Shown here: piece after piece, positions 21,296 through 48,887 of the stretch
Numbering within the stretch: the stretch's first letter is position 1
Layout: the number at the start of each line of letters is the position of its first letter
Assembly (NCBI RefSeq): GCF_013459645.1
Contig: NZ_CP054861.1
Coordinates: forward strand, 3,212,001-3,276,000
DNA length: 64,000 nt
Source: Martelella sp. NC20
GTDB taxonomy: Bacteria > Pseudomonadota > Alphaproteobacteria > Rhizobiales > Rhizobiaceae
Direction: 5' to 3'
Notes under the pieces: generated by a model
What the model was told of the DNA's origin: nothing
Seen by the model: only the letters and a program-made list of their open reading frames with translations
Databases searched by the model: none
Position numbers and translations under genes: made by a program

Positions 21296-21398
21296 AGCGT
21301 CGGGCGAAAAAGTGGAATCCGGTTTTTCGTTAACCCGACGCGTCAAAATAAAGAATCTAGAGCATCGGGCGATGCCAATTAATCGCCCGATGCTCTAG
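21293..21398 (+). repeat. Family A palindromic repeat, copy 2
   Basis: It starts at the stop codon of the metallopeptidase gene with TAGAGCGTCGGGCGAAAAAG and ends CGCCCGATGCTCTA. The right part is an 18-bp perfect stem (21356-21373 with 21382-21399). It is nearly identical to the copy at 10924. The outer ends, TAGAGCGTCGGGCG and the inverse of CGCCCGATGCTCTA, differ at one base, as expected of a MITE with terminal inverted repeats. Confidence 0.88.
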
Positions 21399-21408
21399 AC
21401 TGCAGGCG

Positions 21409-21427: not shown

Positions 21428-21463
21428 CAGTTTGTTGACAACCCATCTTTTTTACGGACGTCA

Positions 21464-22414
21464 TCAACTCTGTTGGCTTAGCTGGTCTCTGAACCTTGCA
21501 TTCAATGTGATGACTATCTTTCGCATGACCGCGGCGAGGGCGACGATTGGCTTTTTACCGTTGTGGATGAGGCGTTTGTAGAATTCGACGAATTCGCCCC
21601 TTCCTTGTGCGGCCTGCATGGCGGGCATGAACAGGATCGTTCGCACGGCTGGCCGTCCACCGCGCATCCTGCGGTAGCCGATCTTGTTGCCGCTTTCGTT
21701 TGGATGAGGCGCCAGGCCCGCCAGAGCCGCTGCTTGCTTTCGGTCCATCTTCCCCAGTTCCGGTATGGCGGCAATGAGGGCTGCGGCCGTCGTTTCGCCG
21801 ATACCCTTCATGGCGGTTGCGGTCCTGGCCCTCTGCACAAGGGATGCGGAGCGCATCAGCGCACTGATGGCTTTGTCGACAAGCACGATCTGCCGGTTGA
21901 GGACAGTGAGCAGGGCCTTGAAGGTGGCGGCCAGGTCGCGCCCGCCCAGTTCGCGCGCGCTTGGGGCCTTGGCGCGATTCTGCTCGGCCACCCTCATGGC
22001 CACCAGATCGGCGCGGCGGCGCACGAGAGCCTTGAGCCTTGCCTCACAGGGGTCCTCCGCATGCCATAAAGGCAGGGTTGCCCATCGCTCCAGCCCATAG
22101 GCGACCATTTCCCGCGCATCGATCGCATCGCTCTTGCCCAAGCGGCCGCGTGACCGGATGAAAGCCTTGAGCTTGCGTGTGTCGGCGCGATGGAGCGGAA
22201 GTTTCAGGCCCCGGCATTCTTCCATCAAGATGATCTCGTAGCCGCCGGTGGGCTCGCAAATGACCAGGTCGACATCGCACTTTCGCAGGAAGTGCCGGAT
22301 CTGTTTTCGCTGGTTGGGAATGACCGTCGCGATGCGGCCGTCAAAAACGGCGATGGTGTCCTTGGCGACATCGACGCCAAGGCAACGGCACGGGGGATGA
22401 TGCAAAAAGGTCAT
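21464..22414 (-). CDS. IS110-family transposase (DEDD bridge-RNA-guided recombinase)
   Basis: A 316-residue recombinase with a RuvC-like N-terminal domain and a C-terminal Transposase_20 (Tnp) domain. The DEDD acids are visible: Asp15 (GVDVAKD), Glu54 (CEPTGGYE), Asp96 and Asp99 (KSDAIDA). The C-terminal part has GIGETTAAALIAAIPELG, an HhH-like segment, and APHPNESGNKIGYRRMRGGR, where the catalytic serine of this family lies. The ATG at 22414 has AGAGGAT upstream and begins just before the RuvC core; 40 upstream codons in the frame fall in the RNA region and are unlikely to be translated. The TGA stop overlaps the ATC core at the element's end. No frameshift or stop is seen, so it looks intact. 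Confidence 0.93.
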   Translation of the reverse strand: MTFLHHPPCRCLGVDVAKDTIAVFDGRIATVIPNQRKQIRHFLRKCDVDLVICEPTGGYEIILMEECRGLKLPLHRADTRKLKAFIRSRGRLGKSDAIDAREMVAYGLERWATLPLWHAEDPCEARLKALVRRRADLVAMRVAEQNRAKAPSARELGGRDLAATFKALLTVLNRQIVLVDKAISALMRSASLVQRARTATAMKGIGETTAAALIAAIPELGKMDRKQAAALAGLAPHPNESGNKIGYRRMRGGRPAVRTILFMPAMQAAQGRGEFVEFYKRLIHNGKKPIVALAAVMRKIVITLNARFRDQLSQQS

Positions 22415-22440
22415 GGTGATGCTATCCTCTCTAGGCTTCG

Positions 22441-22590
22441 GATTGTTTGCGGGCGTGCCAGGCAGCGGCCCAATCAACTCTCCAAGCGATGGCAGAGTGC
22501 GGCAGTGACCTTGATGACGTCGGGTGTTGCCCAATCCTCGGACGGTCGCCTGCCACAGCAGCTGCGGGCTGTGAAAGAGCCCGCAGCTGC
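22441..22590 (-). ncRNA. Predicted IS110 bridge RNA
   Basis: Read on the minus strand, the order is: a 5' hairpin (22590-22578 with 22570-22558, 13 bp, 7-base loop); a target loop with CCGAGGAT (22541-22534), a small GGG/CCC hairpin and GACGTCATC (22521-22513); and a donor loop with AGAGTTGAT (22481-22473), a GGGC/GCCC hairpin and CAAACAATC (22449-22441). The target guides match 22621-22628 and 21457-21465, the two halves of the insertion site. The donor guides match 21463-21471 and 22615-22623, the two element ends. In each loop one guide pairs with the top strand and the other with the bottom strand, and both include the ATC core. This is the known IS621 bridge RNA architecture. Transcript ends are estimates. 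Confidence 0.85.
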
Positions 22591-22596
22591 GCCAAC

Positions 22597-22602
22597 ATCA
22601 TA
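22597..22602 (-). promoter_or_regulatory. -10 box for the bridge RNA; promoter improved in the circular form
   Basis: TATGAT on the minus strand lies 6-7 bases before the 5' hairpin. In the inserted state the hexamer 17 bases upstream is AGGATT, from the target. When the two ends are joined, the transposase end supplies TTGATT at that spot, giving TTGATT-17-TATGAT. IS110 relatives are known to make junction promoters this way; here it is inferred from sequence. Confidence 0.6.
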
Positions 22603-22800
22603 ACCTGCATTCAACAAACAATCCTCGGGCTTGACCGGAGGATCTATCACGGTTCAGCACGAGCGGCGTTGGCGTTTCGTAATGTACGGCATTTGAATGG
22701 CTCTTCGGCCGAGGCACTCGTCGTGTCGATGCGTGCTTAGATGCTCGGGACAAGCCCGAGCATGACGGCCGAGAGAGGAGCGGGCTTTGTCAGCAGTCTG

Positions 22801-30010: not shown

Positions 30011-30189
30011 CAGCTTTTTTGATAAATCCGCTTACCTATCCTGTGTCATCCTCGGGCTTGACCCGAGGATCCAGGCGGGATCGCACAGTCTCAAAAATAC
30101 CATTCTGATCAACGGCCTCTGCAGTATGGATGCTCGGGTCAAGCCCGAGCATGACGCCTGTGGGGCGGCGGCGAGGTTCTCAAACTCTG
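30011..30189. repeat. Family B palindromic element, diverged copy
   Basis: The left end is CAGCTTTTTTGATAAA. It has two palindromes, GTCATCCTCGGGCTTGACCC (from 30045) and GATGCTCGGGTCAAGCCCGA (from 30129), and the right end is near TCTCAAACTCTG. The first palindrome contains ATCCTCGG, the half-site recognised by the IS110 target guide. It fills most of the 309-base gap between convergent genes. Confidence 0.7.
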
Positions 30190-48673: not shown

Positions 48674-48887
48674 CGGCTGCTGACACACGTCTTCCTGTAT
48701 TCTGCGTCATCCTCGGGCTTGACCCGAGGATCTAATCACCCCTCTATGCGAGCGGGGTCTGCGGTTGGTAACACGCTGTTCTTTCTTCCTTTTTAACCCG
48801 AAACGCTTGTCGCGCGGGTACGTGCTTAGACCCTCGGGACAAGCCCGAGGGTGACGAAAGAGGGTGGGGCGGCTTTGTCAGCGGCCC
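48674..48887. repeat. Family B palindromic element
   Basis: The left end is CGGCTGCTGACACA, the palindromes are CGTCATCCTCGGGCTTGACC and ACCCTCGGGACAAGCCCGAG, and the right end is TTTGTCAGCGG. It takes up much of the 405-base gap before cpdB. CGTCATCCTCGG (48705-48716) is a near-complete copy of the IS110 target. The preceding 147 bases (48527-48673) hold nothing recognised. Confidence 0.78.

Follow-up and report, generated by a model that had tools for sequence, protein, structure and literature searches.

IS621 is an IS110-group element of E. coli that has a bridge RNA of about 177 nt, as described in the sections of the two reports on which we draw (PMC11208160, PMC11208158). The handshake experiments with IS621 in the second of these indicated, in the portion used here, that cognate pairing of bases beyond the core hinders exchange (PMC11208158). 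An association with host repeats has been described for ISRm19, an IS110-family element of Sinorhizobium meliloti, 4/4 copies of which were associated with REP sequences according to the excerpted report (PMC1525189). For the seekRNAs of ISEc21/ISMch6 and ISEc11/ISXne4, the cited part of the source describes how related elements have been naturally redirected through changes in their guide bases (PMC11187229). As the mechanism, REP targeting and natural redirection have all been published for IS110/IS1111 elements in these accounts, the system described below is one of a known kind. Judged on its sequence, it is well supported as a further IS110-group element that would use the mechanism published in 2024, and not a new mechanism. 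A literature search found no paper joining Martelella and IS110.

The element lies on the minus strand, as do all its features given below, at positions 21463 to 22623 of the window (the whole 64-kb stretch of DNA that was analysed), and is 1161 bp long counting GAT at both ends. Very probably the element belongs to the IS110 group, was active recently and has an upstream bridge RNA that would select both of its substrates. The recombinase CDS (21464–22414; 316 aa and a TGA stop) has DEDD_Tnp_IS110 and Transposase_20 domains. In a profile search PF01548 and PF02371 were both above cut-off, and the NCBI IS110 equivalog NF033542 gave 148.9 bits (cut-off 140). Among the conserved residues D15, E54, D96, D99, S241 and G242, the three aspartates were present in 15/15 sequences, the one from the window included, and E54 and S241 each in 14/15, with L063 excluded from the count because of its interrupted frame. 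The recombinase match of L063 falls in two frames, split near residue 135, and its guides still match its own flanks.

The RuvC-like DEDD domain combined with a Transposase_20 domain carrying a predicted catalytic serine is a trait of the IS110 group, as are the position of the predicted bridge RNA upstream of the recombinase, within the non-coding region 22415–22620, and the short right end. Membership of the IS1111 group, in which the guide RNA is downstream, was rejected, as the element is without a downstream non-coding end and the stop codon of its recombinase overlaps the right-end core. A TIGR-Tas system was also rejected, the Tas endonuclease profile NF052498 giving only 31.8 bits against a cut-off of 100. 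Rfam at gathering cut-offs gave no matches in the 64-kb window.

The bridge RNA predicted from these data (22435–22590) ends 20 nt upstream of the recombinase CDS and would consist of a 5' stem-loop, a target-binding loop and a donor-binding loop. A preliminary description of this DNA had started the RNA with a 13-bp hairpin, which was confirmed at 22590–22558 (GCAGCTGCGGGCT/AGCCCGCAGCTGC); its helix is kept and its sequence changes in relatives. Based on the fold and the alignment, the target-binding loop (22498–22557) has a stem, the left target guide (LTG), a 3-bp hairpin and the right target guide (RTG), and the donor-binding loop (22435–22487) has a stem, the left donor guide (LDG), a hairpin and the right donor guide (RDG). 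The LTG CCGAGGAT (22534–22541, core AT included), the LDG AGAGTTGAT (22473–22481) and the RDG CAAACAATC (22441–22449) were identified by word search and covariation. In the RTG GACGTCATC (22513–22521), CGTCAT is supported and the leading GA is incidental; its final C pairs with the G at target position -1. The guides therefore stand in the order LTG, RTG, LDG and RDG, in two internal loops, every guide including the core, and this order and polarity upstream of the recombinase are, as the preliminary description had claimed, those given for IS621 in the relevant section of the published account (PMC11208160).

All four words occur once each in the 201-nt upstream region, where they had first been placed, and match 22621–22628 (LTG), 21457–21465 (RTG), 21463–21471 (LDG) and 22615–22623 (RDG) in the sense originally given. 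The positions of the flanks were thus right, and only their names need reversing: read along the transcript, the "right flank" from 22621 onwards becomes the left target, and the "left flank" becomes the right one. Chance had been thought an unlikely source of these matches, and in 5000 dinucleotide-preserving shuffles of the 201-nt region single guide words appeared in 23, 3, 3 and 1, and two words together in none.

The fold energy of the window RNA was 4.2 standard deviations below that of shuffles. In the predicted fold the guides occupy internal loops and are separate from the conserved stems, not buried in them, with the reservation that the free RNA is also predicted to have a constant 3-bp pairing of LDG with RDG (GUU/AAC). 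A linker G stands before each guide, and in 19 sequences G23, G83 and G116 were invariant and G45 was present in at least 90%. Across 19 aligned representatives of related elements, 92.9% of 436 cells in the assigned stems were paired and 14/23 stem pairs had changed on both sides; 0/500 shuffles reached this number or the pairing level. When the partner columns were slid by 1 to 3, pairing fell to 34–53%, a gap that is expected in part because the window's own fold served as the source of the structure. The longest perfect inverted repeat in the 5' stem-loops of 20 representatives was 6–14 bp, with 17 distinct stem sequences. In 1000 shuffles this repeat averaged 4.6 bp with a maximum of 10 bp, which was exceeded by 14/20 representatives; the stems of the other 6/20 were no longer than the best shuffle, the weakest being that of L098 (6 bp).

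Eight copies with at most two differences from the window copy were found in the window's genome. All eight were at CCGRG-GAT / GAT-GAC sites, with GAT once at each junction. In seven of them CCGAG-GAT stood before the element and GACG after it, and the guides matched CCGAGGATGACG exactly; the eighth, L006, had CCGGG-GAT and GACA, and two mismatches. The fifth base after the core was T, as the RTG needs, in 2/8. The outer flanks differed among the eight, except that L001 and L003 were in near-identical repeat copies. Copies at distinct sites thus keep their matches to the target guides, whereas guides failing to match the flanks of copies elsewhere had been named beforehand as the outcome that would speak against a bridge RNA.

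GAT was dropped as the core, since relatives have CAT or AAT at the same place. We therefore take the core to be AT, probably at 22621–22622 at the left-end junction and 21463–21464 at the right-end junction, with the G of GAT as the variable -1 target position, and the ATC on which the guides were initially said to overlap is replaced by AT. The left target flank is CCGAGGAT (22621–22628), the 3' arm of a REP-like palindrome, and the right target flank is GATGACGTC (21457–21465). An RTG of nine bases, as first proposed, was also dropped for want of support beyond +4: the four non-core bases nearest the core stood, and the outer two are incidental. Near the right flank, at 21356–21399, there is a long hairpin (tctagagcatcgggcgat ... 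atcgcccgatgctctaga), which is terminator- or repeat-like.

Relatives were sought in four overlapping sets of genomes, in each of which the window's genome was counted: the genus (13 genomes, 10 with a match at 1e-3, several of them weak), the family (297 genomes, at least nine with a match at 1e-60), the order (397 genomes, at least eight at 1e-50) and the class (385 genomes, at least five at 1e-50). The copy counts for family, order and class may be incomplete because the best 5–7 candidates per genome were scored. The 52 copies that were parsed gave 22 representatives, including that of the window, with protein identity down to 35%; two guide variants were from G007 and three elements from G446. 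Left out of the 22 were further copies of the same elements (e.g., L061), L018 (the same copy as L073), L047 (flanks identical to L059), L064 (the same locus as L103), L062 (left flank missing), L099 (without an upstream region) and L055 (a fragment), and L049–L054, L056, L057, L104 and L105 were outside the parsed set of 52. Missing flanks excluded L098 from the left target test and L103 from the right target and left donor tests. On one small contig, L099 has two right-end-like sequences ending TAGTTGAT-GACGG, which suggests a remnant copy. No viral contig matched the pattern. Two Agrobacterium plasmid records matched 24% of the element at 68.6% identity, and no plasmid matched by protein at 1e-40.

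All four guides matched their own DNA better than permuted partners in the 22 representatives, with p values that are indicative only because the representatives are related and G007 and G446 supply two and three of them. For the left target, positions -1 to -6 gave 110/126 matches in 21 representatives (permuted mean 68.5; 0/20000 permutations as high). Each of these positions was matched in 17–19 of the 21, where column composition led us to expect 7.5 to 16.4; position -7 was matched in nine (4.5 expected), -8 in six (7.3) and -9 in three (3.5). The left donor gave 143/147 matches in 21 representatives (permuted mean 135.2; p 0.0007), with -4 and -5 following the guide in 21/21 and -7 in 17/21 (13.0 expected). 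The right donor gave 122/132 matches in 22 representatives (permuted mean 106.2; p 5e-5), with +4 following the guide in 22/22 and +5 in 21/22, and +6 showing no covariation (13/22 matched, 13.2 expected). For the right target, positions +1 to +4 gave 76/84 matches in 21 representatives (permuted mean 69.5; p 0.004), a result that reflects few changes because +1 to +3 hardly vary. The clearest such change was in L063, where RT GATGAGG is matched by RTG CCTCATC. Positions +5 and +6 showed no covariation, +5 being matched in 5/21 representatives (5.5 expected). The main misfit was L100 (35% identity), whose left target was matched at 2/8 positions; those of L083, L085, L086, L096 and L101 were matched at 5/8. 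Core bases other than AT occurred in the LTG of L048 and L059, the LDG of L100–L103, and the left-target junction of L059 and L096.

The donor words are constant in most representatives, as they could be if the guide–site matches had merely hitch-hiked as pieces of target captured during earlier transposition. We give this explanation next to no credence, as all 52 parsed copies have target and donor words within internal loops and share a single order and polarity (the order is presumed by the parsing pattern itself), and changes in the target were tracked by the guides. The upstream RNA might also be mainly a cis leader, or a small RNA, controlling recombinase expression, with the guide matches secondary. 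Its end 20 nt before the CDS would suit such a role, and regulatory small RNAs have been described for ISPpu9 in the part of the literature drawn on here. However, regulation alone does not account for guides that co-vary with DNA external to the element, and, although the two roles are not exclusive, regulation as the main one seems very unlikely. The guides co-varied with insertion sites, a check proposed in the preliminary description, and also with element ends, and this supported the interpretation given there of the upstream region as a bridge RNA.

The target pattern is the 3' foot of a REP-like palindrome, and there were 110 uninterrupted copies of it in the window's genome, 64 of them CCGAGGATGAC and 46 CCGAGCATGAC, against 2 and 1 for the reversed-pattern controls. 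In a search of four genomes with the joined 30-base empty site, two exact copies were found in G005 and five in G006, and copies with one or two mismatches in G007 (two) and in the window's own genome (one). By eye, copies of the target pattern at 30045–30155 and 48706–48855, and in the genome lists, were often paired in inverted orientation at a spacing of about 100 or 140 bp, which suggests a mosaic palindromic family of host repeats.

An inverted arm of at least 6 bp was present upstream of 39/48 sites (repeat copies counted), compared to 14% for shuffles. Based on this arm, it could be argued that the recombinase reads the REP-like palindrome by protein contacts, with the guide words copying the ends either by chance or for regulation. 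Nine of the 48 sites are without such an arm, however, and seven of those nine match the LTG at 6/8 positions or more. Contacts of this kind also do not account for the base-by-base covariation of guide and site, or for the splitting of co-resident lineages by one guide base described below, and we regard this reading as highly improbable compared to selection of the target by the RNA.

Lineages residing in one genome were identified using a covariance model that was built from the relatives in this analysis and is not a published model. Among the best 150 candidates per genome, it found 8 copies in G000, 17 in G006 and 10 in G007; the 10 remaining genomes of the genus had no hit at E 1e-3. 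The 17 loci of G006 (L108, L111, L114, L117, L119, L122, L126, L129, L131 and L133–L140) were divided without exception, an LTG ending in GGAT being found with a left target ending in GGAT in 11/11 and one ending in GCAT with a target ending in GCAT in 6/6 (Fisher p 8e-5). Uninterrupted sites of the two kinds numbered 83 and 61 in this genome. The upstream regions of the two lineages differ widely, so a single element with a one-base variant does not account for them. The right ends in G006 formed two groups, with 6 and 12 members, and by number we provisionally assign these to the two lineages; RT +4 followed the RTG in 4/6 and 3/12 (lineage B), respectively.

The copies in the window's genome obeyed the same rule, with G-guide copies at G sites in 8/8. 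In G007, C-guide copies were at GCAT in 5/6 (p 0.03 from site numbers), the other, L073, being at a G site. A U-guide variant in that genome (L075, L078, L079 and L082) was at a GGAT site in 4/4 with a mismatch at -1; this is not explained by pairing, and site numbers alone give 0.16. On balance, these data favor a reading in which two IS110 lineages in one Martelella genome divide the REP-like repeats by base -1 of the bridge RNA, a niche partitioning at the level of RNA. The G-guide would then rather probably direct insertion to GGATGAC repeats and the C-guide to GCATGAC repeats. Of all the results, this division of the repeat subtypes inside one genome most deserves to be followed.

Joining of the right and left ends creates a motif resembling a sigma-70 promoter, TTGATT-17-TATGAT, which we infer to be active. 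The -35 TTGATT exists only with the ends joined (21467–21463 + 22620), and the -10-like TATGAT is at 22597–22602, 17 bp from it. TTGATT was present in 21/21 joined ends because the conserved donor word dictates it. At the same position, integrated left ends match the -35 consensus at 1–2 bases, compared to 4 when joined. A TANNNT-like -10 was found 17 or 18 bp from TTGATT in 18/21, and the summed matches to the junction -10 were 74 against 49.1 for shuffles (n=20; p 0.0002). Bases 21463–21467 are shared by the recombinase stop codon, the left donor, the core and the -35 of the junction, and TTGAT includes the stop codon, the core and part of the left donor.

We propose a cycle in which the recombinase and the RNA would release the element in circular form, with its right end joined to its left end through the AT core, and the junction so formed would drive expression of the bridge RNA and the recombinase from the promoter motif. 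The donor-binding loop would then pair with the junction (LDG by seven bases plus AT, RDG by five plus AT), and the target-binding loop with CCCGAGG-AT-GACG, which forms the 3' foot of a REP-like palindrome of the host (LTG by about 6–7 bases plus AT, RTG by up to four plus AT); pairing potential and covariation were found for both of these steps. Finally, the RuvC-like DEDD site and Ser241 would exchange strands at AT, and the circle would be inserted without further duplication; the residues and junctions for this step are present, and its chemistry is presumed from IS621.

Many features of the element resemble those of IS621 in the published sections cited: the RNA upstream of the recombinase, with a 5' stem-loop, a target loop and then a donor loop (PMC11208160), and the four guides each with the core, the DEDD and serine recombinase, the REP target, the junction promoter (here a sequence motif) and the conserved G at all four guide linkers (PMC11208160, PMC11208158). 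From the same source in part, the linker residues G23, G83, G116 and G45 were equated by position with G48, G121, G155 and G72 of IS621, and the catalytic residues with D11/E60/D102/D105/S241 by motif, not by structure (PMC11208158). Among solved structures the recombinase matched only those of ISCro4 and IS621, the best sequence match being the ISCro4 transposase (PDB 9t56; 83 bits), of which only residues 83–301 align, followed by IS621 (82 bits, residues 76–301 only). The likeness to ISRm19 is the association with REP sequences, by description.

Our data add an IS110 lineage with complete guides and an AT core, in which the junction has a promoter motif and the insertion sites are known copy by copy, and the guides follow the repeat families of their hosts. 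The redirection reported for seekRNAs, in the part of that study used here, is between separate elements, whereas here it also appears between lineages co-resident in one genome. Because many copies of both repeat subtypes remain uninterrupted, the pair of lineages offers a natural way to test the discrimination of single bases, and also the handshake-pairing rules derived from IS621. Unlike IS621, in which the core is CT in the account cited, the core here is AT, and the guides and the host differ. In a further difference from IS621, target and donor here share G at -1, and since each handshake base is a C, cognate and non-cognate pairing are both possible; the relatives that target CAT would avoid the cognate handshake pairing on the target side.
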